A stretch of 64,000 nucleotides of DNA from Sciurus carolinensis (taxonomy: Eukaryota; Chordata; Mammalia; Rodentia; Sciuridae). Positions 1,900 to 63,110 of this stretch are shown one piece after another. The translations under genes were made by a program, and so were the position numbers. The stretch covers positions 19,667,678 to 19,731,677 of the forward strand of contig NC_062227.1 in assembly GCF_902686445.1 (NCBI RefSeq), in the 5' to 3' direction. The notes under the pieces were generated by a model. The model was given only the letters and a program-made list of their open reading frames with translations. It did no database searches and was not told the DNA's origin. Positions within the stretch are counted from its first letter, which is position 1. Each line of letters starts with the position of its first letter.

Positions 1900-4800
1900 A
1901 ATATACATTTTCTTTATCCATTCATCAATTGAAGGACATCTAGGTTGGTTCCACACTCTGGCTATTGTGAACTGAGCAGCTATAAACATTGATGTGGCTT
2001 TATCTCTATAATATGCTGATTTTAAGTCCTTTGGGTATAGGCCAAGGAGTGGGATAGATGGGTTAAAAGGTGGGTTCATTCCAAGTTTTCTAAGGAGTCT
2101 CCACACTGCTTTCCAGAGTGACTGCACTAATTTGCAGCCCCACCAGAAATGTATGAGTGTACCTTTCTCCCCACATCCTCGCCAACACCTGTTGTTGCTT
2201 TTATTCTTCTAATTGGGGTGGGATGGAATCTTAGGGGGGGGTTGATTTGCATTTCTCTTATTACTAGAGATGTTGAATATTTTTCCATATGTTTGTTGAT
2301 TGCTTGTAGATCTTCTTCTGTGAAGTGTCTGTTCATTTCCTTAGCCCATTTGTCAATTGGATTTTTTGCATTCTTGATGTAGAGTTTTTTGAGTTCTTTA
2401 TAGATTCTGGAGATTAGAGCTCTATCTGAAGTATGATTGGCAAAGATTTTCTCCCACTCTATAGGCTCTCTCTTCGCAATGCTGATAGTTTCCAAAGCTG
2501 AGAGAAAGCTTTTTAGTTTGAATCTATCCCAGTTATTAATTCTTGTTTTTATTTCTTTTACTATGGGAGTCCTGTTGAGGAAGTCTGGTCCTAAGCTGAC
2601 ATGTTGAAGCTCTGAACCTACATTTTCTTCTATAAGATGCAAGGTCTCTGGTCTGATTCCGAGGTCCTTAATCCATTTTGAGTTGAGTTTCGTGCATGGT
2701 GAGAGATAGGCCTTTAGTTTTATTCTGTTGCATATGGATTTCCAATTCTCCCTGCATAATTTGTTGAAGAGGCTATCTTTTCTCCATTGCATATTTTTGG
2801 CCCCTTTGTCTAGTATGAAAAATTTGTATTTATTTGGGTTTGTGTCCATGTCCTCTATTCTGTACCATTGATCCACCTTTCTATTTTGGTACTAATACCA
2901 TGCCATTTTTGTTACTATTGCTTTGTAGTAGAGTTGAAGATCTGATATTGTGATACCCCCTGCTTCACTCTTTCTGCCAAGAATTGCTTTAGATATTGCA
3001 GGTTTTTTATTCTTCCTGATGAATTTCATAATTGCTTGCTCTATTTCTGTAAGGTACATCATTGGAATTTTAATTGGAATTGCATTGAATCTGTATAGAA
3101 CTTTTGGCAGTATAGTCATTTTGACAATATTAATTCTTCCTATCCAAAACATGGGAGATCTTTCATCGTCTAAGGTTTTCTTTAATTTCTTTCTTTATTG
3201 TTCTGTAGTTCTCATTGTACAGGTCTTTCACCTCTTTTGTGAGATTGATTCCCAAGTATTTTATTTTTTTCAATGCTATTGTGAATGGGGTAGTTTTCCT
3301 TATTTCTCTTTCTGAAGATTCATCACTTATGTAAAAAAATACATTAGATTTATGGGCATTGATCTTATATCCCACTACTTTACTGAATTCACTTAAACTT
3401 TCTGGTGGAATTTCCTGATTCCTCTAAGTATATAATCATATCATCAGCAAATAGGGATAGTTTGAGTTCTTCTTTTCCTATTTGTATCCCTTTAATTTCT
3501 TTGGTCTTTGTAATTGCTCTGGCTAGAGTTTCAAGGACAATATTGAATACAAGTGGTGAAAGAGGGAATCCCTGCCTTGTTCCAGTTTTTAGGGGGAATG
3601 CTTTCAGTTTTACACCATTTAGAATGATATTAGCCATGGGCTTAGCATAGATGGCCTTAACAATGTTAAGGAATGTTCCCACTATCCCTATTTTTTCCAG
3701 TGTTTTGAGCATAAAGGGGTGCTGAATTTTATCAAATGATTTTTCTGCATCTATTGAAATAATCATGTGATTCTTGACTTTAAGACTATTGATATGTTGA
3801 ATTACATTTATTGATTTCCTGATGTTGAACCAACTTGCATCCCTGGGATGAAACCCATTTGATCATGGTGTACTATCTTTTTAACATGTTTTTGTATGCG
3901 ATTTGCTAAAATTTTGTTTAGAATTTTTGCATCGAAGAAGTTCATTAAGGATATTGGTCTGAACTTTTCTTTCCTCGATGTGTCTCTGCCTGGTTGAGGT
4001 ATCAGGGTAATAATGGCTTCATAGAATTAGATTGGGAGGGTTCCCTCCTCTTCTATTTTATGGAATACTTTGAGAAGTATTGGAAAGAGCTCTTCTTTAA
4101 AGGCTTTGTAGAACTCGGCTGAGAACCCATCTGGTCCTGGACTTTTCTTTGTTGGTAGGCTTTTGATGACTTCTTCTATTTCATTACTTGAAATTGGTCT
4201 ATTTAATTTGTATATGTCCTCCTCGTTCAGTTTAGGCAATTCATATGTCTCTAGAAACCTGTGGTTGTCTTCGAAATTTTCTATTTTGTTGGAGTATAGA
4301 TTTTCAAAATAGCTTCTAATTATGTTTTGTGTTTCAATCATGTCTGTTGTGGTATTTCCTTGTTCATTCCGAATTTTAGTGATTTTGGTTTTCTCTCATC
4401 TTCTCTTTGTAAGTGTGGCTAAAGGTTTATCAATTTTGTTTATTTTTTCAAAGAACCAACTCTTTATTTTGTCAATTTTTTGTATTGTTTCTTTTGTTTC
4501 AGTTTTGTTGAATTCAGCTCTGAGTTTAACTATTTCCTGTCTTCTTCTACTTTTGGTGTTGGTCTGTTCTGCTTTTTCTAGGGCTTTGAGCTGTAGTGTT
4601 AGGTTGTTTATTTGTTGAGTTTTACTTCTTTTATTAAATGCACTCCATGAAATAAATTTTCCTCTAAGTACTGCTTTCATAGTGTCCCAGAGATTTTGAT
4701 ATGATGTTTCTTTGTTCTCATTTACCTCTAAGAATTTTTTAATTTCCTTCCTAATATCTTCTGTTATCCATTCATCATATAATAACATATTGTTCAATCT

Positions 4801-5554
4801 CCAGGTGTTGGAGTAGTTTCTGTTTCTTATTCTTTCATTTATTTCTAACTTCAATCCATTATGATCTGATAGAATACAAGGTAGTGTCTCTATCTTCTTG
4901 TATTTGCTAACATTAGCTTTGTGGCATAATATATGGTCTATTTTAGAGAAGCATCCATGTGCTGCCGAGAAGAAAGTGTATTCTGTCTTGGTTGGATGGT
5001 ATATTCTATAAATGTCTGTTAAGTCTAAATTATTGATTGTGTTATTGAGATCTATGGTTTCTTTGTTCAATTTTTGTTTGGAAGATTTGTCCATCGGTGA
5101 GAGAGGTGTGTTAAAATCACCTAGTATTGTTGTGTTATTGTCTATTTGGTTTCTAAAATTGAGAAGGATTTGTTTGACATACGTGGATGAGCCACTGTTT
5201 GGGGTATAGATGTTTATGATTGTTATATCTTGCTGATTTATGCTTCCCTTAAGCAGTATGAAATATCCTTCTTTATCCCTTCTGACTAACTTTGGCTTGA
5301 AGTCCACAATATCTGAAATGAGGATGGATACTCCAGCTTTTTGCTGAGTCCATGTGCATGTTTTTTCCCCATCCTTTCACCTTTAGTCTTTGGGTATCTC
5401 TTTCTATGAGGTGAGTCTCTTGCAGGCAACATATTGTTGGATCTTTCTTTTTAATACTATCTGCCAGTCTATGTCTTTTGATTGATGAATTCAGGCCATT
5501 AACATTCAGGGTTATTATTGAGATATGATTTGTTTTCCCGATCATTTGTTTCAT
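1900..5554 (-). pseudogene. L1-A ORF2 (endonuclease/reverse transcriptase), broken
   Basis: The endonuclease start is readable from 5554 downward (NHISIITLNVNGLNSSIKRH, then LQETHL). The endonuclease continues to about 4.9 kb with GDFNTPLSP and SDHNG motifs. Reverse transcriptase pieces follow: [15 protein letters not shown] near 4.1 kb, TRQGFPLSP near 3.56 kb and the catalytic LFADD near 3.45 kb. The thumb and C-terminal pieces follow (KWIKDLGIRPETLHLI near 2.65 kb). The protein is split into at least seven frame segments by frameshifts and stops, so it cannot make active ORF2p. The catalytic FADD motif itself is still readable. Confidence 0.9.
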
Positions 5555-16499: not shown

Positions 16500-19400
16500 T
16501 ATCTCACTTAGCATGATATTCTCCAATTTCATTCATTTGTCTGCAAATGCTTTAATTTTATCATTCTTCATGGTGAAGTAATATTCCATTGTATATATAT
16601 GCCACAGTTTCTTTATCCATTCATAAATTGAAGGACATCTAGGTTGGTTCCACAATCTGACTATGGTGAATTGAGCAGCAATGAATATTGATGTGGCTCT
16701 AGCTCTGTAGTACGTTGATTCCAAAGCCTTTGGGTATAGGCCAAGGAGTGGGAGAACTGGGTCAAATGGTGGTTCCATTCCAAGCTTTCTGAGGAATCTC
16801 CATACTGCTTTGCAGAGTGGCTGCACTAATTTGCAACCCCACCAGCAATTTATGAGTGTAACTTTTTCCCCACCTCCTCACCAACACCTATTGTTTCTTG
16901 TGTTCTTGATAATCGCCATTCTAATTGGGGTGAGATGGAATCTTAGAGTAGTTTTGATTTGCATTTCTCTTATTACTATACATGTTGAACATTTTTTCAT
17001 ATATCTGTTGATTGCTTGTAGATCTGTGAAGTGTCTGTTCATTTCCTTAGCCCATTTGTTGATTGGATTATTTGTATTCTTGGTGTAGAGTTTTTTGAGT
17101 TCTTTATAGATTCTGGAAATTAGTGCTCTATCTGAAGTATGAGTGGCAAAGGTATTCTCCCACTCTGTAGACCCTCTCTTCACATTACTGATAGTTTCCT
17201 TTGCTGAGAGAAAGCTTTTTAGTTTAAATCTATCCCAGTAGTTGATTCTGGCTTTTGTTTCTTGTGCTATTCGAGTCATGTTAAGGAAGTTTGATCCTAA
17301 GCCAACAAGTTGAAGATTTGGACCTTCTTTTTCTTCTATAATATGCAGGGTCTCTGGTCTGATTCTGAGGTCCTTGATCCATTTTGAGTTGAGTTTTGTG
17401 CAGGGTGAGAGATAGGGGTTTAATTTCATTCTGTTGCATATGGTTTTCCAGTTTCCCCAGCACCATTTGTTGAAGAAATTATCTTTTCTACATTGCATAT
17501 TTTTGGCCTCTTTGTGTAGTATGAGGAAATTGTATTTATTTGGGTTTGTGTCCATGTCCTCTATTCTGTACCATTGATCTACCTGTCTATTTTGGTACCA
17601 ATACTATGCCCTTTTTGTTACTATTGCTTTGTAGTAGAGTTGAAGATCTGGTATTTCGATACCCCCTGCTTCGCTCTTTCTACTGAAGATTGCTTTAACT
17701 ATTCTGGGCTTCTTATTCTTCCAGATGGATTTCATAATTGTTTGCTCTATTTCTGCAAGGTACATCATTGGGATTTTAATTTGAATTGCATTGAATCTGT
17801 ATAGAACTTTTGATACTATGGCCATTTTAACAATATTAATTTTTCCTATCCAAGAACATGGGAGATCTTTCCATCATCTAAGGTTTTCTTTAATTTCTTT
17901 CTTCAGTGTTCTGTAGTTCTCATTGTAGAGGTCTTTCACCTCTTTTGTGAGATTGATTCCCAAGTATTTTATTTTTTTCGATGCTATTGTGAATGGGGTA
18001 GTTTTCCTAATTTCTCTTTCTGAAGATTCATCACTTATGTATAAAAATTCATTGGATTCATGAGCATTGATCTTGAAACCTGCTACTTTACTGAATTCTC
18101 ATATGAGTTCTTAAAGTTTTCTCATGGAATTTCCAGGTGCCTCTAAATATATAATCATGTCATCAGCAAACAGGTATAGTTTATGTTCTTCTTTTCCAAT
18201 TGGTATCCGTTTAATTTTTTTGGTTTGTCTAATGACTTTGGCTAGAGTCTCAAAGACAATGTTGAATAGAAGTGGTAAAAGAGCGCATCACTGCGTCGTT
18301 CCAGGTTTTAGGGGGAATGCTTTCAGTTTTTCACCATTTAGAATGACATTGGCCATGGGCTTAGCGTAGATGGCCTTTACAATGTTAAGGAATGTTCCCA
18401 CTATCCCAAATTTTTCTAGTGTTTTGAGCATGAAGGGATGCTCTATTTTATCAAATGATTTCTCTGCATCTATCAAAATAATCATGTGATTCTTAATTTA
18501 AAGTCTGTTGATATGGTGGATGACATTTATTGATTTCTGGGTGTTGTACCAACCTTTCATCCCTGGGATAAAACCCACTTGATCGTGGTGCACTCTCTTT
18601 TTAATATATTTTTGTATGCAATTTGCTAAAATTTTGTTGTGAATTTTTGCCTTGTTTTTCATTTAGGATATTGGTCAGAAATTTTCTTTCCTCGATGTGT
18701 CTCTGTCTGCTTTAGGTATCAGGGGGATATGAGCTGCATAGAATGACTTTGGAAGTGTTCCCTCCTCTTCTATTTTATGGAATACTTTGAGGAGTATTGG
18801 AATGAGCTCTTCTTTAAAGATTTTGTGGAACTCGGCTGAGAACCCATTTGGTCCTGGACTTTTCTTTGTTGGTGGGCTTTTGATGACCTCTTCTTTTTCA
18901 TTGCTTGAAATTGATTTATTTAGGTTGTGTACATCCTCCTTGTTCAGCTTAGGTAATTCATATGTCTCTAGAAACTTGTTGATGTCTACAAGGTTTTCTG
19001 ATTTCTTGGACTATAGATTTTTAAAATTGCTTCTAATTATGTTTTGTATTTCATTCATGTCTGTTGTGATATTTCCATGTTCATTCCGAATTTTAGTATT
19101 TTGGGTTTTCTCCCTCTTTCTCTTTGTTAGTGTTGTTAAGGTTTTATCAATTTTGTTTATTTTTCAAAGAACCAACTATTTATTTTGTTAAAATTTCTGA
19201 ATGTTTCTATTGTTTCAATTTCATTGATTTTGGCTCTGATTTTATCTATTTCCTGTCTTCCACTACTTTTCATATTGGTCTGCTCTTCTTTTTCTAGGTC
19301 TTTGAGCTGTAGTGTTAAGTCGATTATTTGTTGATTTCTACTTCTTTTGTTGAATGCGCCCCATGAAACAAATTTTCCTCTAAGTATTTCTTTCATAGTG

Positions 19401-20272
19401 CCCCAGAGATTTTGATATGATGTGTCTTTGTTCTCATTTATTTCTAAGAATTTTTTGTTTCCCTCCTGATGCCTTCTGTTATCTATTCATCATATAAGAG
19501 TGTATTATTTAATCTCCAGGCATTGGAGAAGTTCCTGTTGTTTATTCTGTCATTTATTTCTAATTTCAATCCATTATGATCTGATAGAATACAAGGTAGT
19601 ATCTCTATCTTCTTGTATTTGCTAACAGTAGCTTTGTGGCTTAATATATGGTCTATTTTAGAGGAGGATCCATGTGCTACTGAGAAGAAAGTGTATTCAT
19701 TCTTTGTTGGATGGTATATTCTATACTTGTCCATTAAATCTAAATTTGATTGTGTTACTGAGATCTATGGTTTCTTTATTCAATTTTTGTTTGGAAGATC
19801 TATCCAGTGGTGAGAGAGGTGTGTTAAAATCGCCTAGTATTATTGTGTTGTGGACTATTTGATTTGTGGAATTGAGAAGGATTTGTTTGACGTACATGAA
19901 TGAGCCAATGTTCGGGGCATAGATGTTTATGATTGTTATGTCTTCCTGATTAATGTTTCCCTTAAGCAGTATGTAGTGTCCTTCTTTATTCCTTCTGACT
20001 AGTTTTGGCTTGAAGTCCACATTATCTGAAATGAGGATGGATACTCCAGCTTTTTTGCTGTGTCCCTGTGCGTGGTATGTTTTTTCCCATCCTTTCATCT
20101 TTAGTCTATGGGTATCTCTTTCTATGAGATGAGTCTCTTGCAGGTAGCATATTGTTGGATTTTTATTTTTAATCCAATCTGCCAGTCTATGTCTTTTGAT
20201 TGATGAGTTTAGGCCATTAACATTCAGGGTTAGTATTGTGATATGATTTGTATTCCTAGTCATTTGACCCAT
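16500..20272 (-). pseudogene. L1-C ORF2, broken
   Basis: It starts at 20272 with NHITILTLNVNGLNSSIKRH and runs through the endonuclease (GDFNTPLSPLDRSS near 19.8 kb, SDHNGLKLEI near 19.57 kb). Reverse-transcriptase blocks follow ([20 protein letters not shown] near 18.4 kb), then thumb and C-terminal blocks (PYLSPCTKLNSKWIKDL near 17.4 kb; [20 protein letters not shown] near 16.8 kb). It is split into several frames by stops and indels. The longest surviving piece is 225 codons at 16878-17555. Confidence 0.9.
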
Positions 20273-22016: not shown

Positions 22017-22104
22017 TTTTTTTGGGGGGGGATGCTGTGGATCGAACCCAGGCCCTTGTGCTTGCAAAGCAAGCACTCTGCAAACTGAACTATCTCCCCA
22101 GTCC
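22017..22104 (-). mobile_element. ID SINE, minus strand
   Basis: The minus strand shows CTGGGGAGATAGTTCAGTTT, GCAGAGTGCTTGCTTTGCAA and a GGTTCGATCC B box. The flanks read AGGTTCTTCAC (about 22005-22015) and AGGTCTTCAC (from 22105), a TSD with one base of length difference. Confidence 0.85.
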
Positions 22105-22788: not shown

Positions 22789-22861
22789 TGCTTGTGTAGT
22801 GTAATGGTGAGCACTCTGGACTCTGAATCCAGTGATCTGAGTTCAAGTCTCTGTGGGACCT
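22789..22861 (+). tRNA. tRNA-Gln(CUG)-like sequence, probable pseudogene
   Basis: The anticodon arm is intact: stem CTGGA (22816-22820), 7-base loop CTCTGAA with anticodon CTG at 22823-22825, stem TCCAG. The D region (TGTAATGGTGAGCA) and T arm (CTGAG, TTCAAGT, CTCTG) match tRNA-Gln, but the T stem has one mismatch. The 3' acceptor strand GGGACC has no matching 5' partner at the expected position; a GGTCC lies 8-9 bases too far upstream (22781-22785). There is no ID-type head or A tail, so it is not one of the SINEs. Confidence 0.65.
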
Positions 22862-33185: not shown

Positions 33186-36100
33186 TCATCTGCTTATCAG
33201 CGAGATCATTCGTCCTTTAGTTTTTTGAGATTGGCTTATCTCACTTAGCATGATATTCTCCAATTTTGTCCATTTGGCTGCAAATGCCATAATTTTATCA
33301 TTCTTCATTGCGGAGTAATATTCCATTATATATATATAACACAGTTTCTTTATCCTTTCATCAACTGAAGGGCATCTAGGTTGGTTCCACAATCTGGCTA
33401 TGGTGAATTGAGCAGCAATGAACATTGATGTGGCTGTATCTCTGTAGTAGGCTGATTTTAAGTCCTTTGGGTATAGGCCAAGGAGTGGGATAGTTGGGTC
33501 AAATGATGTTTCCATTCCAAGCTTTCTGAGGAATCTCCATACTGCTTTCCAGAGTGGCTGCACTAATTGACAACCCCACCAGCAATGTATGAGTGTTCCC
33601 TTTTTACCACATCCCCGCCAACAACTATTGTTGCTTGTGTTCTTGATAAACGCCATTCTAATTGGGGTGAGATGAAATTTTTGGGTAGTTTTGATTTGCA
33701 TTTCTCTTATTACTAGAGATGTTGAACATTTTTTCATATATCTGTTGATTGCTTCTACATCTTCTTCTGTGAAGTGTTCATTTCCTTAGCCCATTTGTTG
33801 ATTGGATTATTTGTATTCTTGGTGTAGAGTTTTTGGAGTTCTTTATAGATTCTGGAAATTAGCGCTCTATCTGAAGTATGGTTGGAAAACATATTCTCCC
33901 ACTCTGTAGGCTCTCTCTTCACATTGCTGATAGTTTCCTTTGCTGAGAGAAAGTTTTTTAGTTTGAATCTATCCCAGTTGTTGATTCTTTCTTTTATTTC
34001 TTGTGCTATGGGAGTCCTGTTAAGGAAGTCTGATCCTAAGCCAAGAAGTGGAAGATTTGGACCTACTTTTTCTTCTATAAGATGCAGGGTCTCTGGTCTG
34101 ATTCTGAGGTCCTTGATGAATTTTGAGTTGAGTTTTGTGTAGGGTGAGAGATAGGGGTTTATTTTCATTCTGTTGCATATGGTTTTCCAGTTTTTCCAGC
34201 ACCATTTGTTGAAGAGGCTATCTTTTCTCAATTGCATATTTTTGGACCCTTTGTCTAGTATGAGAAAATTTGTATTTATTTGGGTTTGTGTCCATGACCT
34301 CTGTTCTGTACCATTGATCTATCTGCCTATTTAGGTACCAATACCATGCCATTTTTGTTACTATTGCTTTGTAGTAGAGTTGAAGATCTGGTATTGCAAT
34401 AACCCTGCTTCGTTCTTGCTACTTCAGATTGCTTTAGCTATTCTAGGTTTTTAATTCTTCCAAATGAATTTCATAATTGCTTGCTCTATTTCTGCAAGGT
34501 ACATCATTGGGTTTTTAATTGGAATTGCATTGAATCTGTATAGAACTTTAGGTAGTATGGCCATTTTGACAATATTAATTCTGCCGATCCAAGAACATGG
34601 GATATCTTTGCAACTTCTAAGGTTTTCTTTAATTTCTTTCTTTAGTGTTCTGTAGTTCTCATTGTAGAGATATTTCTCCTCTTTTGTGAGATTGATTCCC
34701 AAGTATCTTATTTTTTTTGATGCTACTGTAAATGGGGTAGATTTCCTAATTTCTCTTTCTGAAGATTCATCACTTATGTATAAAAATGCATTGGATTTAT
34801 GAGCATTGATCTTGTGACCTGCTCCTTTACTGAATTCACTTATGAGTTCTAAAAGATTTTTGGTGGAGTTTCCAGGTTCCTCTAAATATATAATCATGTC
34901 ATCAGTGAACAGGGATAGTTTGAGTTCTTCTTTTCCTATTCGTATCCCTTTAATTTCTTTGGTTTGTCTGATTGCTCTGGCGTTTACAATGTTAAGGAAT
35001 GTTCCCACTACCCCAATTTTTTCTAGTGTTTTGAGCATGAAGCGATGCTGTATTTTATCGAATGCTTTTCCTGCATCTATTGAAATAATCATTTGATTCT
35101 TAACTTTAAGTCTGTTGATATGGTGAATGACATTTATTGATTTCTGAATGTTGAACCAACCTTGCATCCCTGGGATAAAACCCACTTGATCATGGTGCAC
35201 TATCTTTTTAATATATATTTGTGTGCAATTTGCTAAAATTTTGTTAAGAATTTTTGTGTCGATGTTCATTAAGGATATTGGTCTGAAATTTTCTTTCCTC
35301 GATGTGTCTCTGTCTGGTTTAGGTATCAGGGTGATATTGGCTTCATTGAACAAGTTTAGGAGGGTTCCCTCCTCTTCTATTTCATGGAATACTTTGAGGA
35401 GTATTGGAATGAGCTCTTCTTTAAAGGTTTTGTAGAACTCGGCTGAGAACCCATCTGGTCCCTGACTTTTCTTTGTTGGTAGGCTTTTGATGACCTCTTC
35501 TATTTCATTGCTTGAAATTGGTTTATTTAAGTTGTGTATGTCCTCCTCGTTCAGTTTAGGTAATTCATATGTCTCTAGAAATTTGTTGATGTCTTCAAGG
35601 TTTTCTGTTTTGTTGGAGTATAGATTTTCAAAATAGCTTCTAATTATGTTTTGTATTTCACTCCTGTCTGTTGTGATGTTTCCTTGTTCATTTCGAATTT
35701 TAGTAATTTGAGTTTTCTCCCTCTTTCTCTTTGTTAGTGTGGCTAAGTGTTTATCAATTTTGCTTATTTTTTCAAAGAACCAATTGTTTATTTTGTTAAT
35801 TTTTCCAATAGTTTCTTTTGTTTCAATTTCGTTGATTTTGGGTCTGTTTTTAACTATTTCCTGTCCTCTACTACTTTTGGTGTTGGTCTGCTCTTCTTTT
35901 TCTAGCGCTTTGAGCTGTAGTGTTAAGTCATTTATTTGTTGATTTCTACTTCTTTTATTGAATGTGACCCATGAAATAAATCTTCCTCTAAGTACTGCTT
36001 TCATAGTGTCACAGAGATTTTGATATGCTGTGTCTTTGTTCTCATTTACTTCTAAGAATTTTTTTTATTTCCCTCCTGATGTCTTCTGTTTTTCATTCAT

Positions 36101-36881
36101 CGTATAATAGTGTATTATTTAATCTCCAGGTATTGGAGAAGTTTCTGTTTTTTATTCTGTCATTTATTTCTAATTTTAATCCATTATGATCTGATAGAGT
36201 ACAAGGTAGTATCTCTATCTTCTTGTATTTGCTAACAGTAGCTTTGTGGCATAAAATATGGTCTATTTTAGAGAAGGATCCATGTGCTGCTGAGAAGAAA
36301 GTGTATTCATTCTTTGTTGGCTGGTATATTCTATATATGTCTGTTAAGTCTAAATTGTTGATTGTGTTATTGAGATCTATGGTTTCTTTATTCAATTTTT
36401 GTTTGGACGATCTATCTAGTGGTGAGAGAGGTGTGTTAAAATCGCCTAGTATTATTGTGTTGTGGTCTATTTGATTTCTGTAATTGAGAAGAATTTGTTT
36501 GAAGTACGTGGATGAACCAATGTTCAGGGAATAGATATTTATGATTGTTATGTCTTGCTGATTTATGCTTCCCTTAAGCAGCATGTAATGCCATTCTTTA
36601 TCCCTTCTGACTAGTTTTGGCTTGAAGTCCACATTATCTGAAATGAGGATGGATACTCCAGCTTTTTTGCTGTGTCTGTGTGCATGGTATGTTTTTCCCC
36701 ATCCTTTCACCTTTAGTGTATGGGTATCTCTTCCTATGAGATGAGTCTCTTGCAGGCAGCATATTGTTGGATTTTTTTTAATCCAATCTGCCAGTCTATG
36801 TCTTTTGATTGATGAATTCAGGCCATTAACATTCAGGGTTATTATTGTAATATGATTTGTATTCCCAGTCAATTGACTCAT
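33186..36881 (-). pseudogene. L1-D ORF2, broken (endonuclease, RT, C-terminal domain)
   Basis: Four long frame segments. 36093-36881 (262 codons) holds the endonuclease (NHITIITLNVNGLNSSIKRH, LQETHLIGRD, GDFNTPLSPLDR, SDHNGLKLEI). 34451-36004 (517 codons) holds most of the reverse transcriptase ([48 protein letters not shown]). 33755-34237 and 33186-33737 hold the thumb and C-terminal parts. Inside the 517-codon frame 132 nt are missing relative to L1-A at the GGC at 34979-34981. This removes the motif around RQG-PLSP without breaking frame. The catalytic FADD motif reads FTDD. The protein cannot be an active RT. Confidence 0.9.
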
Positions 36882-36928
36882 AATTGTTTTTTGACATGAT
36901 TTGGTTTCTCCTTTATTTAACTATTCCT

Positions 36929-38012
36929 TTAGGCTAGCGCCTCCTGTTGCTGATTTGCATCATTGTTTTTCATCTCTTCCTCATGGAATATTTTGCAGAG
37001 AATGTTCTGTAATGCTGGCTTTCTTTTTGTAAATTCCTTTATCTTTTGTTTATCATGGAAGGATCTTATTTCATCGTCAAAGTTGAAGGTAAGTTTTGCT
37101 GGGTATAAAATTCTTGGTTGGCATCCATTTTCTTTCAGAGCTTGAAAAATGTTGTTCCAGACCCTTCTAGCTTTTAGGGTCTGAATTGAAAATTCTGCTG
37201 ATATTCTTATTGGTTTCCTTCTGAATGTAATTTGATTCTTTTCTTTTTTGGCCTTTAAAATTCTGTCTTTATTTTGTATGTTAGGTATTTTCATAATAAT
37301 GTGCCTTGGTGTGGGTCTGTTGTAATTTTGTATGTTTGGAGTTCTATAAGCCTCTTGTACTTGGTTTTCCATTTCATTCTTCAGATTTGGGAAATTTTCT
37401 GATATTATTTCATTGTATAGATTGTTAATTCCTTTGGTTTGTTTCTCTAAGCCTTCCTCAATCCCAATAATTCTTAAATTTGGCCTTTTCATGATATCCC
37501 ATAATTCTTGTAGATTCTGTTCATGATTTCTTACCATCTTCTCTGTTTGGCCAACTTTGTTTTCAAGATTAAATAATTTGTCTTCAATGTCTGAGGTTCT
37601 GTCTTCCAGGTGTTCTATCCTTTTGGTTATGCTTTCTATGGTGTTTTTAACTTGGTTTATTGTTTCCTTCATTTCAAGGATTTCAGTTTGTTTGTTTTTT
37701 CAGTATCTCTAACTCTTTTTTGAAATGATCTCTTGCTTCCCGTATTTGATCTTTTAACTGTTGATTGGTGTGATCATTTAATGCCTGCATTTGCTCTTTC
37801 ATCTCCTCCTTCAATGCCTGCATTTGCTCTTTCATCTCCTTGTTTGCTTCTCTGATTGTTTTAATTATATACATTCTGAACTCCCTTTCTGACATTTCTT
37901 CTGCTGTGCTGTCATTGGGTTTTATTGATGTAGTATCTGGTTTGTTTGGGACATTTTCTTCCCTTGTTTTCTCATATTGGTCAGATGTCAGTGGGAATCT
38001 GAGATATTGCAA
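36929..38012 (-). pseudogene. L1-D ORF1, frameshifted
   Basis: The N-terminal part is 37683-38012 (109 codons: SEREFRMYIIKTIREANKEM, then tandem KEQMQAL coiled-coil units). The rest is 36929-37672 (247 codons: coiled coil to about residue 60, RRM with PNLRIIGIEEGLEKQTKG, C-terminal domain with YPAKLTFNFDDEIRSF). They are in different frames, joined near a T-rich run at 37680-37700. Otherwise the protein is nearly complete; ORF1p normally trimerises and coats L1 RNA. Confidence 0.9.
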
Positions 38013-44607: not shown

Positions 44608-44611
44608 ATAG
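44608..44611. repeat. target-site duplication ATAG (left)
   Basis: ATAG precedes the TG of the 5' LTR and recurs at 51952-51955 directly after the CA of the 3' LTR. A 4-bp TSD is characteristic of gammaretroviral-type integrase. Confidence 0.85.
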
Positions 44612-45153
44612 TGAAGCCAGAATTGGGGACAGGCAGTTAGTGTAGAAATAGGAAATCAGGTCAGATCAAGAAAATAGAGGCCATCAAGCCATCTGCCTCT
44701 GGAAGTTGGAGACTGCAATGGGAGAATGGAATGTCAAGGACCTGCAGAGCCCATTGATAACCAAATTCACCTGCCCTTGTCAGAGACTACAGGCAGGAAA
44801 GTGCTGATTAATGCCTCCTGGGCCCTTGCCTGTCTGAATCCCTTTGACCCTCCCCCTGCCCCATCCGTCTCTCACCTTTTACATCTCACCTGCAAACCAG
44901 GCCTAATCCCGCAGGCAGGAAGGGAAGAGATAAGGGGAAAGAATGGGAGAATGAAACCCATAAAAAGAACGAGATTTGCTCATCCCACGGATTCCGCCTT
45001 TGGGTCCCCTTCTTCCACCCGGGAGAAGTCTGCTTTTCCTTTTCTTTAATAAAGCTGCATTTTCCACTCTACATTTGCCTCAGCGTGCTTCTCTGGCATT
45101 ATACTTCAACACCTGAGGAAGCAGGACTCGTCACCGGGTAAAAAGCGGTATCA
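44612..45153 (+). repeat. 5' LTR of young provirus
   Basis: 542 bp, TG...CA. TATA-like CATAAAAA at 44959-44966 and polyadenylation signal AATAAA at 45048-45053, so U3 is about 375 bp, with a short R and U5. It differs from the 3' LTR at 44658, 44816, 45082, 45094 and 45098. It contains a 107-codon open frame (44726-45049). Confidence 0.95.
44959..44966 (+). promoter_or_regulatory. LTR TATA box
   Basis: CATAAAAA, about 85 bp before the polyadenylation signal. Transcription start is expected near 44985-44995. The same motif sits in the 3' LTR. Confidence 0.6.
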
Positions 45154-45157
45154 GATT

Positions 45158-45175
45158 TGGAGGTCCCACCGAGAT
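45158..45175 (+). other. primer-binding site, tRNA-Thr-like
   Basis: TGGAGGTCCCACCGAGAT starts 4 bases after the LTR end. Its first bases are complementary to a tRNA ending CCUCCA, as tRNA-Thr does; the rest fits imperfectly. Assignment to Thr is from memory of tRNA 3' ends. Confidence 0.6.
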
Positions 45176-45182
45176 CTACGCC

Positions 45183-45191
45183 GAGGTAAGT
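45183..45191 (+). other. major splice donor candidate
   Basis: GAG|GTAAGT with GT at 45186-45187, a near-perfect donor shortly after the PBS, where retroviruses place the donor for env mRNA. Confidence 0.7.
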
Positions 45192-46249
45192 GAGCTTTTC
45201 TCTTCACGCACCCCAATCTGTCCGAGGTGCATCTTTCTGTCTCTTTCTTTCTGGAGGGCAAAATGGGCACCCGTCGGCTACTTAAATGCAACTAGTGCAG
45301 CCGCCATTCTTAAGACTCGGGTGAGAGGTTTCTCGGCTCAGGCAAGTTTCCAATCCCCTGCTCTGCAGGCACGTTGGGGCTCTGCTGAAGCCATTTCCTA
45401 CTTTTCTGTCCAGGCCCGGAGCGCAATTGCCGTGAGTACACAGTGTCCCTAGTCCTGATCTGCCCAGGATGCATGGAGGCGGAGGAAAGGTTGGAGCAAC
45501 TGCGGGGTTCTTGGCCCGGGCTACTCTCGGGTGGATCCCAAAGGTTCCTTCTCTGGACTCCCCCTCCCGACCGCCCTAAGGGGTATCCAAGGTGATCAGT
45601 AGACAAATGGCACCGAGGGAAAGCGCCAATTACATTTGCCTCCGTATGGGCCGCGCAGCACACCGCACACATCCATTCCCTCCTGGATGTTTTCCCTTCG
45701 CTCGCCGATCAGACATTAAACATTCAGATAGTAGGATCATAGGAAAATCAATAGGAAAGTACTCAGGTTATCTTTGTTTGCATATTTAGCCTTTGTTAGT
45801 TTGTTTAAAGTTTTCCTGTGCTTAAAGGTGCTCAGTGTGTTCTAAGCTGCAAAGAGGATGTATACTTTAATTCAACCCCTCCCTTGAATCCCTCAGAGAA
45901 CAGGGTATTATATGTCTAACAATCAATAGGTGTCCCCCTCACCCTTTGGAGATCCCTTTAGTCTACAAAATAGGCAAGAAGATGTACAATTCTTCTTTTG
46001 TTGTAGGAATTTATAGTGGCAGGGAGGAAAGCAGTAATGCCCTTAAGTCTGAATCCTCCCAGGGTCTCTAGCACAGGGCAAACTAGGACCCTCGCACTTT
46101 GCCGAAGAAGGCCAGAAATAACTTTGGCAAAGCCAGGTAGTGAGAGACGGGTTTTCTGGACCGGATTGAAGCTCAAACTTAGGGAGACGTCCCTGCACAT
46201 AGTCTTCGGCGTGGGCGCCTGAGGTCTATTTTTCTTTTCTTCCACTTAG
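45192..46249 (+). other. proviral leader (5' untranslated region)
   Basis: Just over 1 kb between the splice donor and gag, longer than in most simple retroviruses. No conserved frame is seen on the plus strand; a packaging signal would be expected here but cannot be located by eye. It ends in a pyrimidine tract and CACTTAG that abuts the gag ATG. Confidence 0.6.
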
Positions 46250-47692
46250 ATGGGAGCTTCACTCTCAACAGTATTGCCAGGTTCACCACTAGCCTGCATA
46301 CTGAAAAACTGGGACAAATTTGACCCACAGACACTCAAGAAAAAGCGCCTCATTTTCTTCTGCCGCCAGGCCTGGCCTCAATACAAACTCTCTGATGGAG
46401 AATCTTGGCCACCAGAGGGAAGTACAAATTTTAATACCATTTTACAGCTTGATATATTTTGCAAAAGGGAAGGAAAATGGTGTGAGGTACCTTATGTTCT
46501 AATCTTCTTTATTCTAAGGGAAAACCCCAAATTATGCCAACAATGTAAAATAGATTCAGCCAGAACCACTACTGTAAAGGAAGAAAGCCTTAAAGAGTCA
46601 CCTACTGAGGGAAAGGAATTTTCTGCTAAAGTCCATCAGCAGGCCTCCTGTCCTCCATACCCTGGTCCTTCTCCATCTGCCCCAGTGGACAGATCAAATG
46701 TACTACCTCTCCAGGAGATGCCAGGAGGAGAATTTGGACCAATTAAAGTATACAACCCCTTCTCCCTCCAAGACCTAAGACAGATAAAAACAGACCTAGG
46801 GAAATTTTCAGAAGATCCAGATAAATATATTGAGGTGTTTCAAAACCTATGCCAGGTGTTTGACCTCACCTGGAAAGATATTATCCTGTTACTTAACCAG
46901 ACTTTAACCTGCAATGAGAAGGAAGCCACCCTGAAAGCAGCTGAACAATTTGGGGATGACCTACACCTTGCTCATGCCCCAGGAGCCCAAACTAGATCTA
47001 AACCCAACTATCCATCGGGAGCACAGGCAGTTCCAAGAAATGACCCCGACTGGGACCCAAACGATGAACAGGATGCTTGGAAGATCAGACACTTCCAGAT
47101 GTTAGTCCTTGAGGCCCTTAGGAGAATCAAACAGAAGCCTATTAACTATTCTAAGGTTTCTGAAATTATACAAGGTCCCAAAGAAAGCCCGGCTATTTTC
47201 ATGGAGAAACTCAGGGAGGCAATGAGAAAACACACCACCGTGGATCCTGAATCCACAGAGGGCCATTTACTTTTAAAGGACAAATTTATCATTCAGTCGG
47301 CCCCAGACATTCGGAGGAAATTACAAAAATTGGCATATGGCCCTGATCAATCCTTAGATGATATCCTCCGACTTGCAACTTCCGTTTTTTATAATCGAGA
47401 TGTAGAGGAAAAGAAGGAAAAAGAGTGTAGAGACAGAAGAAAAACTGAAGCGCTGGTCTTAGCCCTAAGAGGAGTTAGCTTCCCGGGTGATGAAGAAAGA
47501 AAACAGAATGTACCTCAGGCCACAAAAGGGATTTGTTTCCGTTGTGGAAAGGAGGGACATTTCAGACAGGAATGTCCCCAAGCCAAACGGCCACCACCAA
47601 AGCCCTGCCCCAAGTGTCAAGGCAATCATTGGAAAAGTGACTGTCCTCAGGGGCGTAGGTCCTTGAGGCCAGACTCTTCCACACAGGCCTGA
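46250..47692 (+). CDS. gag: Gag polyprotein, intact 480-codon frame
   Basis: Structural polyprotein that would assemble virions at the plasma membrane. It starts MGASLS, a myristoylation-type N-terminus (matrix). A PSAP late-domain motif lies at residues 142-145. Capsid starts around residues 163-170 (GPIKVYNPFSLQDLRQIK). The major homology region is at about 308-327 (QGPKESPAIFMEKLREA). A charged stretch at 385-400 leads into nucleocapsid, which has two zinc knuckles: C429-X2-C-X4-H-X4-C442 and a second CX2CX3HX4C at 453-465 (one residue shorter than standard). The stop is TGA at 47690-47692, in the same frame as pro-pol. The start is the first ATG after the leader and carries the Gly needed for myristoylation. 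No internal stop or frameshift is seen. Confidence 0.93.
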   Translation: MGASLSTVLPGSPLACILKNWDKFDPQTLKKKRLIFFCRQAWPQYKLSDGESWPPEGSTNFNTILQLDIFCKREGKWCEVPYVLIFFILRENPKLCQQCKIDSARTTTVKEESLKESPTEGKEFSAKVHQQASCPPYPGPSPSAPVDRSNVLPLQEMPGGEFGPIKVYNPFSLQDLRQIKTDLGKFSEDPDKYIEVFQNLCQVFDLTWKDIILLLNQTLTCNEKEATLKAAEQFGDDLHLAHAPGAQTRSKPNYPSGAQAVPRNDPDWDPNDEQDAWKIRHFQMLVLEALRRIKQKPINYSKVSEIIQGPKESPAIFMEKLREAMRKHTTVDPESTEGHLLLKDKFIIQSAPDIRRKLQKLAYGPDQSLDDILRLATSVFYNRDVEEKKEKECRDRRKTEALVLALRGVSFPGDEERKQNVPQATKGICFRCGKEGHFRQECPQAKRPPPKPCPKCQGNHWKSDCPQGRRSLRPDSSTQA

Positions 47693-47706
47693 CGGGGCCC
47701 GGGGCC
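47690..47706 (+). promoter_or_regulatory. gag-pro stop codon in read-through arrangement
   Basis: TGA followed directly by CGGGGCCCGGGGCC in the same frame, which then stays open into protease. Gammaretroviruses make Gag-Pol by suppressing the gag stop; a TGA-C context and strong GC-rich downstream structure fit that. Function is inferred. Confidence 0.6.
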
Positions 47707-49195
47707 AATTCTAATGGCTCCCGTAACTCCTTTCACTACGCATGAGCCCCGGGTATGCTTCTCCATAGGGAGCCAAGAGGTCAACTTCCTCTTAGATACT
47801 GGCGCTAGTTTTTCAGTGCTCACCTCTTATCCTGGACCTCTCTCCTCTAATACTATAACGGTGCAAGGGGTGTCTGGACGGCCTATTACCAGAAAGTTTA
47901 CTCCCCCACTGAGTTGTGAGTGGGATGGGATGATGTTTTCTCATGCATTCCTGATAGTGCCAGAATGCCCTACCCCTCTATTGGGAAGGGATTTACTTTC
48001 AAAACTTCAGACTTCCATTACAATGAATTTGGGACCACAAGGATCATTATGTTTACCTCTACTAGAATGTGATATAAACCCTGAGGTATGGGCCACTGAA
48101 GGCAAGATTGGACGGGCAAAAAGAGCAATCCCAGTTAAAATAGTCTTAAAGGATCCCTCTGTCTTTCCACATCAGAGACAATACCCGCTACGCCCAGAAG
48201 CAAAAAAGGGCTTATTAAAAATCATCCAGAACCTCAAACAGCAGAAACTTTTAGTACCTTGTAACAGCCCATGCAATACACCAATTTTGGGAGTTCAAAA
48301 ATCAAATGGGGAATGGCGTTTAGTCCAAGACCTCAGAATAATTAATGAAGCAGTTGTTCCCCTCCACCCAGTAGTTCCTAATCCATATACTCTGCTATCT
48401 GAGATTCCAGCAACTGCTGCTTGGTTTACTGTGTTAGATTTAAAAGATGCCTTCTTTTGCATACCTCTGGATTCTCAGTCTCAGTATCTGTTTGCCTTTG
48501 AGGAACCAGATAGTGGATCTCAACTAACCTGGTCAGTACTCCCCCAAGGATTTAGAGATAGCCCCCACCTATTTGGACATCAAAAAGGAATAGATGAAAT
48601 AGCAGAAGGCAATAGACGAGCAGATCAGCAAGTCAAAGAGGCTGCTAAGGGAACTTTGCAACAAATAGCGACTTTAGCCCCTTTGATATGGACAGGCCCT
48701 CCCCCAGAGATAAGGCCCCAATACACCCAGGAGGAAACACAGCAGGCTTTATCTAGAGGAGGTAACCTCTTGCCCTCTGGGTGGATTCAAATGGAAGATA
48801 ACAAACTCTACTTACCTGCTAACTCCCAGTGGAAGATTTTACACACCCTACATCAATCCTTCCATCTGGGAGAAGAAAACACTCTCAAATTAACTCAAGA
48901 GATATTTGAAGGGAAACATATTTCAAAAACAATCCAACAAATAGTCAAAGCCTGTGAAACGTGCCAAAGGAATAACCCCCTTAACTCTACCAAAAAGCCC
49001 CCAAGGCTACAAAGAACAGGACAATTCCCTGGAGAAGACTGGCAACTTGATTTTACTCACATGCCAAAAAGTAATGGATTTCAATATTTATTGGTTATGG
49101 TAGATACATTTACAGGGTGGACTGAGGCCTATCCCTCCAGAACTGAACAGGCAGGAGAAGTAGTCAAAGCCTTATTACAGGAAATAATTCCTTGA
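47693..49195 (+). CDS. pro-pol: Pro-Pol, internally deleted, ends at premature stop
   Basis: The frame is open from the gag stop; the first ATG is 47714. From that ATG, the protease has NFLLDTGASFSV (residues 24-35) and LLGRDLL. RT fingers and palm follow (NGEWRLVQDLRIIN, then AWFTVLDLKDAFFCIPLD with the first catalytic Asp, then LPQGFRDSPHLFG). Immediately after this the sequence becomes the end of RNase H (GHQKGIDEIAEGNRRAD, near 48577). The second RT motif (the YxDD region), the connection and almost all of RNase H are absent without loss of frame. Integrase follows with the HHCC zinc domain (HQSFH ... CETC) and the first catalytic Asp (WQLDFTHMP). A TGA at 49193-49195 ends the frame inside the catalytic core. 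Confidence 0.9.
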   Translation, partial: RGPGPILMAPVTPFTTHEPRVCFSIGSQEVNFLLDTGASFSVLTSYPGPLSSNTITVQGVSGRPITRKFTPPLSCEWDGMMFSHAFLIVPECPTPLLGRDLLSKLQTSITMNLGPQGSLCLPLLECDINPEVWATEGKIGRAKRAIPVKIVLKDPSVFPHQRQYPLRPEAKKGLLKIIQNLKQQKLLVPCNSPCNTPILGVQKSNGEWRLVQDLRIINEAVVPLHPVVPNPYTLLSEIPATAAWFTVLDLKDAFFCIPLDSQSQYLFAFEEPDSGSQLTWSVLPQGFRDSPHLFGHQKGIDEIAEGNRRADQQVKEAAKGTLQQIATLAPLIWTGPPPEIRPQYTQEETQQALSRGGNLLPSGWIQMEDNKLYLPANSQWKILHTLHQSFHLGEENTLKLTQEIFEGKHISKTIQQIVKACETCQRNNPLNSTKKPPRLQRTGQFPGEDWQLDFTHMPKSNGFQYLLVMVDTFTGWTEAYPSRTEQAGEVVKALLQEIIP

Positions 49196-49891
49196 TTTGG
49201 TCTGCCCCGCAGCCTCCAAAGTGACAATGGAGCTGCTTTCAAGGCTGCTGTCACTCAGGGAATATCCAAAGCCTTAGGCATAAAGTACCATCTCCACTGT
49301 GCATGGAGGCCCCAGTCCTCAGGAAAGGTAGAAAAAACTAATGACATCCTAAAAAGGCACCTAAGAAAACTCACTCAAGAAACTCACTACCCATGGCCTA
49401 AAATGCTTCCTCTAGCCCTACTCAGAATCAGGAATACCCCCAAAACATTAGGGCTCAGCCCATTTGAGCTCCTATATGGAAGACCATTCCTAAGAAATGA
49501 TATCCTTAAAGATCAGGAAACTGCAGAATTAGTGGCTCATATCACAAAGTTGGCCAAATTTCAAACTGAGATCTGTAAATACCCTGCATCTGAGCCAATC
49601 ACTTCTCCACCTCTGTATGAGCCTGGAGATCTAGTCATGATAAAAACCGTACCTTCAAGTTCTCCAAATTTAGACCCTATTTGGAAAGGACCTTTTCCTG
49701 TAATCTTATCTACCCCCTCTGCAGTAAAAGTGCTGGGACAAGAGAACTGGATTCACCACTCTCGAGTTAAAGCCTGCCATCCTGAGTCGACTCCCAAAGA
49801 AACTTCCTCCCAAGGAACTGAGGAGCGATACTCCTGCACTCCAATAGAAGACCTAAAATATCTCTTCTGCAGAGACAATGGTGATATGTAA
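49196..49891 (+). pseudogene. pol: Pol integrase C-terminal part beyond in-frame stop
   Basis: Same frame as pro-pol, open from just after the TGA to 49891. It carries the other two catalytic integrase acids in context (SLQSDNGAAF and PQSSGKVEKTN), and the C-terminal GPF-type domain typical of class I elements (LDPIWKGPFPVILS, then NWIHHSRVKAC). An ATG-initiated part starts at 49403 (162 codons). The 3' end overlaps the start of env in another frame, as in simple retroviruses. No translation start is expected for this part; it is the broken tail of pol. Confidence 0.9.
49861..49872 (+). other. env splice acceptor candidate
   Basis: TCTCTTCTGCAG with AG at 49871-49872, five bases before the env ATG at 49878. 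A second possible acceptor (TTTATTATTGTAG) ends near 49922 inside env. Confidence 0.5.
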
Positions 49892-51296
49892 ACTTTTCTT
49901 CTTCTCTTTCTTTATTATTGTAGGCAGATCCACTGAAACTAATTCTTTCCTAAATTGGGCCCAGCAATATGCCACTAAATTACAAAAAGATAATTGCTGG
50001 ATATGTGGACTATTACCCCTTTCCAGCACCTCTGGACTACCTTGGTGGGTATCTCCTTTACAGGGAAATGACTGGACAAATTTACAGTCCTTAATATTAG
50101 AACAAAGGAAGGAAAGACCCTCCTTACAAACTGCTACTCGTGCCAATATTAGCTTATGGCCTATTAATGAAACTCTATCACTACCAGGTCATAAAAAGGC
50201 TTTCACTTTAGAGCAAACCAATGTTCAAATTTCTACGGCTGTTAAGTCACATGCGGGCCCATTCACTTCTAACTCTCCACCACCGCCACCCATATGTCAC
50301 AGATACAAAGACGGTTATTATCAGGTTTGGGATGGAAATTTATGGCTTACACCCACCATTGGGCATCTAAACCAAAAGGCCCCAATCTGTTGGGAACAAC
50401 ATAACCATACTTATGATATATGGCCTAATAGTACTCGAGAATTAGGATGGACCCCAGAGTCACAATGCCAACAAATTGTAATTTTACAAGCCAATGATTG
50501 GTTTGGAACTAATTGGCTCTCTAGGCCTGAAATTAGCTGGCCAGCACCCCATGGGACACAATGGATATGTGGAACTAACTTATGGCCCTGGCTTCCCCCA
50601 GGCTGGATAGGAAGATGTACTATTGGGTACCCCTGGATGCAAGGGAGATGGACCCCAAGTATAGAACAGCCAGCAAATCTCCCCAATCTCAAACATAGAT
50701 GGGGACGATCTGTTTTTCGTTGGTATGATCATTTAGCTTCAATGTTTATCCCACAAATTGGTTTAGAAAGTGTAATGTGGCATGTGGAGACCCTAAACAA
50801 TTATACCCAAACCGCCCTCCATGATGTTGGAGAAAGCATTTCTCTCCTTAATACAGAAGTGACACTCATGAGGAAAGCTGTCTTACAAAACCGGATGGCT
50901 TTAGACATCCTCACTGCAGCCCAAGGCGGTACTTGTGCTATTGTTAGAACTGAATGCTGTGTTTACATCCCTGACAACTCTAACAATGTAACTAACATCC
51001 TTAAAGATTTACATTCTCAGATAGAGGCCATGTCCTCTCCAGACTCATCATGGGAACAAATTCTTAGTTCCTGGTTCTCTGGTACCTCCTGGTGGAAAAC
51101 ATTATTAGTCTCTATAATCATCATCATACTCATTGGTGTGTTCCTATGCTGTGGCATTTACTGTTGCATTAATCTTATCCCAGTACTCATAACTTCTTGT
51201 TTCTCTTATAGACCGCCCATCTCTCAAATGACCCTCCAACCTATCACTCTTCAACCAGACTTTTACCATGGACCCCTCGATCGACCCGATTTATAA
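49878..51296 (+). CDS. env: Envelope glycoprotein, intact 472-codon frame
   Basis: A hydrophobic signal peptide is visible at residues 1-16 (CKLFFFSFFIIVG). CWIC, a CxxC-type motif, is at 40-43, unusually close to the N-terminus. A proline-rich stretch lies at 133-138. Conserved-looking Cys/Trp blocks include GTQWICGTNLWPWLPPGWIG (226-245). Six N-glycosylation sequons occur (N90, N97, N176, N184, N308, N370). A TM ectodomain with an immunosuppressive-domain-like stretch (VLQNRMALDILTAAQGG, 335-351) is followed by CX6CC at 353-361. The membrane span is about 408-430 with a short tail. I see no RX(K/R)R furin site and no clear hydrophobic fusion peptide at the expected SU-TM boundary (about 270-300). 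The length is shorter than the roughly 540-650 usual for gammaretroviral Env. No stop or frameshift is seen. Confidence 0.9.
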   Translation: MVICKLFFFSFFIIVGRSTETNSFLNWAQQYATKLQKDNCWICGLLPLSSTSGLPWWVSPLQGNDWTNLQSLILEQRKERPSLQTATRANISLWPINETLSLPGHKKAFTLEQTNVQISTAVKSHAGPFTSNSPPPPPICHRYKDGYYQVWDGNLWLTPTIGHLNQKAPICWEQHNHTYDIWPNSTRELGWTPESQCQQIVILQANDWFGTNWLSRPEISWPAPHGTQWICGTNLWPWLPPGWIGRCTIGYPWMQGRWTPSIEQPANLPNLKHRWGRSVFRWYDHLASMFIPQIGLESVMWHVETLNNYTQTALHDVGESISLLNTEVTLMRKAVLQNRMALDILTAAQGGTCAIVRTECCVYIPDNSNNVTNILKDLHSQIEAMSSPDSSWEQILSSWFSGTSWWKTLLVSIIIIILIGVFLCCGIYCCINLIPVLITSCFSYRPPISQMTLQPITLQPDFYHGPLDRPDL

Positions 51297-51398
51297 AAAG
51301 GAACTCCAAGCTGCTTGCCCCTCGCCGTCCACTTTCAGCTCGAAGAAGTCAGAGCGGTCATCGACCCCCTTCCCCAGCAGCATGGAGTTCCTAAGATT

Positions 51399-51409
51399 AG
51401 AGGGGGGAA
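51399..51409 (+). other. polypurine tract
   Basis: The purine run GAGGGGGGAA directly precedes the 3' LTR TG and would prime plus-strand DNA synthesis. Confidence 0.85.
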
Positions 51410-51951
51410 TGAAGCCAGAATTGGGGACAGGCAGTTAGTGTAGAAATAGGAAATCGGGTCAGATCAAGAAAATAGAGGCCATCAAGCCATCTGCCTCTGG
51501 AAGTTGGAGACTGCAATGGGAGAATGGAATGTCAAGGACCTGCAGAGCCCATTGATAACCAAATTCACCTGCCCTTGTCAGAGACTACAGGCAGGAAAGT
51601 GCTGATTAATGCCCCCTGGGCCCTTGCCTGTCTGAATCCCTTTGACCCTCCCCCTGCCCCATCCGTCTCTCACCTTTTACATCTCACCTGCAAACCAGGC
51701 CTAATCCCGCAGGCAGGAAGGGAAGAGATAAGGGGAAAGAATGGGAGAATGAAACCCATAAAAAGAACGAGATTTGCTCATCCCACGGATTCCGCCTTTG
51801 GGTCCCCTTCTTCCACCCGGGAGAAGTCTGCTTTTCCTTTTCTTTAATAAAGCTGCATTTTCCACTCTACATTTGCCTCGGCGTGCTTCTCCGGCGTTAT
51901 ACTTCAACACCTGAGGAAGCAGGACTCGTCACCGGGTAAAAAGCGGTATCA
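51410..51951 (+). repeat. 3' LTR of young provirus
   Basis: 542 bp; TATA-like CATAAAAA near 51757 and AATAAA at 51846-51851. At four of its five differences from the 5' LTR this copy has CpG where the 5' copy has TpG or CpA. It is followed by the TSD ATAG at 51952-51955. Confidence 0.95.
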
Positions 51952-51955
51952 ATAG

Positions 51956-62330: not shown

Positions 62331-62708
62331 AGACCTTGTTCTCTCTGACCTTTGTTAGGCCTTGTTATGGGAACAATTTCTCAGTTTTTCCACCTCCTAG
62401 TGAGGGATTATTAACCTCTGTCATCTTCTTGACATGTTCCAGATGCTCCAACATTTATTTTGTATTAATCTCATTTCAATACTCACGTCTTTTGTTTCTC
62501 TCTCATAGAAGCACCCACAGCCTGAGGACTTTGCAACCTGCTCTTCCCCAAACAGACTTCTACCATGGACCCCTCCATTGTCCCAGTTTCTAAAAGTGAA
62601 CTCCAAACTCCTTACCCCACATTGCCCCCTTCCACCTCAAAGGAGACAGAGCAGTCATCACTCCATTTCCTTACAGCAGTAAAGAGTTTCTAAAGCAAAA
62701 GGGGAAAA
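62331..62708 (+). pseudogene. env: class I env 3' end and PPT relic
   Basis: Colinear with the young provirus from the TM ectodomain (TATGGGAACAATTTCTCAG) through the membrane and tail region (CTTCTACCATGGACCCCTCC matches TTTTACCATGGACCCCTCG) and the post-env spacer (AGTGAACTCCAAACTCCTTA). It ends in the purine run AAAAGGGGAAAATG just before the U3-like segment. A 96-codon frame at 62303-62593 ends in a Gln-rich DFYHGPL segment like the young Env tail. Confidence 0.8.
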
Positions 62709-63110
62709 TGAAACCAGAATTGTGGCCAGGCAGTTAGTGTAGAAATAGGGGATCAAGTCAAATGGAGAAAGTGGAGGCCAAGAAAGCCATCTGCCTCTGG
62801 AAGTTGGAGACTGTCCCTGGGAGAACGGAACATCAAGGATCTGCAGAGCCCATTGATTACCAGACTTACCTGACTGAATCACTTTTACCTTCCCCTGCAC
62901 ATTTGCTTCTTACTTTATGGATCATCCTGCATAACCAGGCCTAGTCACATAGACAGGAAGGAGAGACAAGGGGGGAAAGAACTGGAAAACCAAAGAGACA
63001 CTAACCTATAAAGGATGTAGGGTGTGCTCACTTCTTGGTACTTTAGAACATCAGCCATGGCCCCCTTCTCCCTCCCAGGAGAGGTCTTATGTTATTACCT
63101 TTAAATAGAA
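62709..63110 (+). repeat. class I U3/R-like segment, truncated
   Basis: Aligns to the young provirus LTR from AAACCAGAATTGTGGCCAGG (LTR start) through CAGTTAGTGTAGAAATAGG, CATCTGCCTCTGGAAGTTGG and CAGAGCCCATTGATTACCAG to the AGGAGAGGTCTT region before the polyadenylation signal. It stops there. U5 and a CA end are absent. Divergence is far greater than between the two young LTRs. Confidence 0.8.

Follow-up and report, generated by a model that had tools for sequence, protein, structure and literature searches.

The element at positions 44608 to 51955 of the window, the 64,000-nucleotide stretch of Sciurus carolinensis DNA analysed here, is very probably a gamma-like (class I) endogenous retrovirus (ERV) from a squirrel family, inserted recently and defective for replication. 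It has the order LTR-gag-pro-pol-env-LTR within an ATAG target-site duplication (Table 1). Syncytin-Car1 is an ancient captured env that serves as a placental gene of Carnivora; what makes the provirus most interesting is that a copy this young carries an env belonging to the syncytin-Car1 clade. The affinity of env, the UGA-CGG junction between gag and pol, a SPRE-like motif and an older 3' piece of the same family are all new relative to an earlier note on this DNA.

Table 1. Features of the provirus and of the related fragment downstream (window coordinates)
Feature	Position	Strand	Basis
5' target-site duplication, ATAG	44608-44611		sequence
5' LTR, 542 bp	44612-45153	+	LTR pair comparison
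Primer binding site, 18-mer	45158-45175	+	starts 4 bases past LTR
Predicted splice donor, GAG/GTAAGT, GT at 45186	45183-45191	+	motif match only
gag, 480 codons, stop UGA	46250-47692	+	ORF and Pfam domains
Possible readthrough signal: UGA-CGG with a candidate pseudoknot	47690-47775	+	shuffle score
pol frame: protease, first part of reverse transcriptase, N-terminal part of integrase	47693-49195	+	Pfam, MLV match
Joint of in-frame pol deletion	48566-48580	+	alignments to MLV reverse transcriptase, P0057 and P0050
Remainder of integrase, same frame, MLVIN_C domain	49196-49891	+	Pfam
env, 472 codons, overlaps end of pol	49878-51296	+	ORF, TLV_coat, alignment, tree
SPRE-like 17-mer, C-rich on both sides, weak	51335-51351	+	4 mismatches
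Polypurine tract, adjoins 3' LTR	51399-51409	+	sequence
3' LTR, 542 bp	51410-51951	+	LTR pair comparison
3' target-site duplication, ATAG	51952-51955		sequence
Older 3' family fragment: env end (72%), partial LTR (pieces of 85% and 74%)	62452-62989	+	sequence comparison

The earlier note had described a very young class I ERV with closely matching LTRs, a clean 4-bp target-site duplication, a primer binding site, a splice donor and a polypurine tract, and this architecture was borne out. The LTRs differ at five positions and align without a gap (blastn, 542/542 columns, 99.08% identity), and both begin and end with TGAAGC...GTATCA. ATAG is exact at the two ends, and the span of the element, which is that of the earlier note, takes in both duplications. 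Within the 5' LTR lie a TATA-like box (~44960) and an AATAAA (~45048). The leader holds four GTRAG sites, of which the predicted splice donor is one; candidate acceptors 5' of env were found at 49426, 49725 and 49848 by pyrimidine count only. The class I assignment likewise held: paired LTRs with a short duplication flank a gag and a pol in one frame with a stop between them, Gag_p30, MLVIN_C and TLV_coat domains are present, and both the domains and the best solved relatives are gamma-type. The 18-mer of the primer binding site has been assigned differently in the available parts of two papers, which disagree: an identical 18-mer complements tRNAGln3 according to PMC1592299 and is assigned to tRNA-Thr in PMC3564811.

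The age of the insertion was estimated from the LTR pair with the rates of the earlier note (2-4e-9 per site per year). All LTR sites gave 1.15-2.31 My (95% limits 0.37-5.38), in line with the age of around 1-2 million years proposed in that note, albeit with wide limits. Four of the five differences fall at the 28 CpG positions and one in the other 514 sites; at these four the CpG is absent from the 5' LTR, in a comparison that is unpolarised. Non-CpG sites gave 0.24-0.49 My (95% limits 0.01-2.71); the earlier note had remarked that the age might be less once CpG sites were excluded. Taken together, the two site sets place the point ages at 0.24-2.31 My and the 95% limits at 0.01-5.38 My, limits that are wide because the LTR differences number just five. 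The observed/expected CpG ratio reaches 0.31 in one LTR, 0.41 in the other and 0.30 in the internal region, compared with 0.12 for the remainder of the window; this weaker CpG depletion is a second, independent mark of youth. On this dating, reverse transcription and integration would have placed the provirus here during about the last 0.2-2.3 My, with an upper limit near 5 My.

Gene conversion between the LTRs could still mimic youth. An older provirus with LTRs homogenised in this way would be compatible with the LTR likeness taken alone, and an older family copy does sit 10.5 kb downstream of the young provirus (CpG observed/expected over its LTR piece, 0.06). We nevertheless consider such an origin very improbable, since the CpG ratio is also high in the internal region and since just one premature stop was found across gag, env and the remaining coding region. 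The older fragment does mean that this genome had hosted the ERV family before. Elsewhere in the window, a LINE-1 on the minus strand (33186-37672) retains long open pieces, namely a 247-aa ORF1-type piece (Transposase_22), a 262-aa endonuclease and a 517-aa reverse transcriptase, and smaller pieces of endonuclease occur at 4396-5307 and 19721-20272. Outside the provirus, Rfam matched tRNAs at 22027-22099 (minus strand, 29.1 bits) and 22790-22861 (plus strand, 45.1 bits); an ARAGORN scan of the whole window reported no tRNA, and the two matches are perhaps SINE-derived.

That gag and env are open, with 480 and 472 uninterrupted codons, stands as the earlier note had it; this openness is, however, no sign of selection. 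At the three divergences tried, gag would stay stop-free with a probability of 0.50-0.91 and env with one of 0.41-0.89, so open frames are expected without selection because the element is so young.

By contrast, pol carries two lesions, a deletion and a stop codon, that the earlier note did not mention. The frame contains a protease (3.6e-14), positions 1-130 of the 205-position reverse transcriptase profile and then an integrase zinc-binding domain with a partial core. The reverse transcriptase best matches that of murine leukaemia virus (MLV; 3.8e-49), in an alignment that stops at residue 211 of the 4hkq chain. Against the relative P0057 (164/191 aligned residues identical), residue 285 of the window frame joins the end of RNase H, which puts the far side of the joint at about residue 644 of the 4hkq chain; a second relative, P0050, tracks the window up to the joint and diverges beyond it. 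The alignments thus give an estimate of ~437 codons, roughly 1.3 kb, deleted in frame. Most of RNase H is lost, as is the later half of the reverse transcriptase, catalytic motif included, and a search of pol for [YFM]xDD found no motif left. Further downstream, a premature TGA at 49193-49195 splits the integrase. Pol is dead in this copy, and the provirus lacks the intact pol that autonomous replication requires. Since the insertion occurred, some working pol must have made it, whether the deletion came before or after; this pol would have been encoded by the parent of the copy or supplied in trans.

The deletion joint preserves the reading frame, and pol as shortened by it stays open for 500 codons, as might be seen if the deletion were common to many copies of a non-autonomous subfamily multiplied by proteins supplied in trans. 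This is unlikely in our view: by chance one joint in three would be in frame, P0057 retains RNase H, and no close-identity protein across the joint was noticed among the best 120 of 570 matches. For the recently inserted, defective provirus that we favour, the present-day copy would make at most Gag and a syncytin-Car1-type envelope, and self-driven reverse transcription and integration would be impossible.

Gag contains a weak MA domain, a Gag_p30 domain (6.6e-30), one CCHC zinc knuckle (8.3e-06) and a PSAP motif. Its closest relatives come from Ictidomys (82% identity over 74% of the length) and Callospermophilus (87% over 45%), and in a tree of 20 rows (the window and 19 of the 62 proteins found) the window and its squirrel relatives form one clade (100/100). 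Together with the Sciurus vulgaris env described below, these ground squirrel proteins support a squirrel host. The Ictidomys Gag terminates at the equivalent residues, so the position of the stop, as read at the protein level, is common to both.

At this stop the context is UGA-CGG, with pol lying beyond it in the frame of gag, as it does 3' of the gag stop in MLV, with which the provirus also shares Gag p30 and MLVIN_C. In the available part of PMC3542737, a table lists UGA-CGG as a type II context and gammaretroviruses as UAG-G, type III, so the junction here differs from theirs. Downstream, a candidate H-type pseudoknot could form from a stem 1 of nine pairs including one G-U (47697-47705/47746-47754) and a stem 2 of eight pairs (47715-47722/47768-47775). 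No dinucleotide shuffle (0/1000) and no other segment of the gag-pol region (0/128) matched its score, in a post hoc test that used a simple pair score devised after the stems had been spotted by eye. Plain folding 3' of the gag stop showed no excess stability (z 0.07), and a local hairpin competes with the candidate knot. The type II context is accompanied by a candidate 3' structure that the shuffle score supports and plain folding does not. The geometry also departs from that of the MLV knot, where the spacer is 8 nt long and the loops measure one base and 18 nt (PMC4178896); here the spacer would be 4 nt and the loop between the stems 23 nt. We regard the pseudoknot as a good candidate. 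Nine of 22 related proteins that extend 5' of the junction run through it by our by-eye reading, and 13 could not be placed there; run-through in the nine would fit a mutated UGA and a UAG alike. Gag would arise by termination at the UGA, Gag-Pol by readthrough and Env from a spliced RNA.

Env matches TLV_coat (4.5e-15) and contains CWIC, RWGR and CX6CC motifs and a membrane segment; its best solved structure is Syncytin-2 (residues 223-435, 2.4e-13). It is shorter than the MLV env. It is not truncated, since these features are present and its length is nearly that of syncytin-Car1 (472 aa here, 473-476 aa there), with which it also shares CWIC, CX6CC and an R-W-x-R cleavage site. A search for the furin motif R-x-[RK]-R in env found none; the site reads R-W-T-R in most aligned relatives, syncytin-Car1 included, and RWGR in the window. 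Among 48 proteins the best match was one from Sciurus vulgaris, 472 aa long and 94% identical; of the 26 differences, 15 precede the cleavage site and 11 follow it. Identity to four labelled carnivoran syncytin-Car1 proteins was 55-57% in alignment A1, which took 16 of the 48 proteins, and 56-58% by BLASTP.

In a tree of 26 rows, built from the window and 25 of the 48 proteins, the window sequence paired with that of S. vulgaris (100/100) within a clade of 14 rows (99/99) that contains syncytin-Car1 and is separate from the syncytin-Rum1 group. The other members are from meerkat, two heteromyid rodents, Cavia and Pteropus, along with two unnamed proteins. Mammalian env proteins labelled PABLB by their sources are likewise of the TLV_coat family, with the heteromyid, Cavia and Pteropus copies in this same clade, and are 32-57% identical to the window env in A1. 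Another recent sciurid retrovirus, that of Gunnison's prairie dog, also has an env with CX6CC; according to the available part of PMC7354474 it is, however, a type D betaretrovirus that uses ribosomal frameshifting and has a 605-aa env. No related locus was found in viral contigs searched with env, the gag alignment and the env alignment, or in prokaryote genome contigs searched with the gag alignment. Among the literature matches listed, we recognised no paper on a squirrel ERV with a syncytin-Car1-type env. Another ancient env gene pair, of Carnivora and Artiodactyla, appears in the available part of PMC9604959, and those of PMC11089739 and PMC3835772 hold nothing contrary to the present reading.

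Could this env be a squirrel syncytin, co-opted by its host? It clades with syncytin-Car1 and keeps the cleavage, CXXC and CX6CC motifs, and S. vulgaris has an open env that is 94% identical. Yet in so young a provirus the env would be expected to stay open even if selection played no part, and it was the source of the S. vulgaris record that labelled it syncytin-Car1; co-option seems a most improbable explanation of what would otherwise be the env of a defective young provirus. Syncytin-Car1 differs in being a single gene of ancient origin that is conserved across an order.

A SPRE-like motif lies 5' of the polypurine tract. In the available part of PMC8579622, SPRE is a 17-nt core with C-rich flanks that occurs in syncytin-Car1 and was seen in none of the exogenous viruses examined; the match here is much weaker than that of syncytin-Car1. 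With 4/17 mismatches it is weak, shuffling the interval gave a match as good in 13 of 5000 trials, and one equally close match occurs elsewhere in the 64 kb, at 18160. A search for the core with three or fewer mismatches returned none. The core at 51335 is not kept at that position in the older family copy; a second SPRE-like site at 51374, with five mismatches, has a counterpart there.

Taken as a single locus, this is an ordinary defective provirus, usable as a presence/absence marker among squirrels. We tentatively entertain a wider possibility, that the source lineage of syncytin-Car1 survived in a squirrel branch that may have carried a full-length env in working proviruses until ~1 My ago or less and made Pol by way of an unusual readthrough signal in which a type II UGA-CGG context is joined to a pseudoknot. 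The findings suggest that a retrovirus lineage with a syncytin-Car1-type env was recently still active in rodents, and the young provirus offers material near the live state of the syncytin-Car1 lineage, for receptor use and for the control of Env and Gag-Pol.
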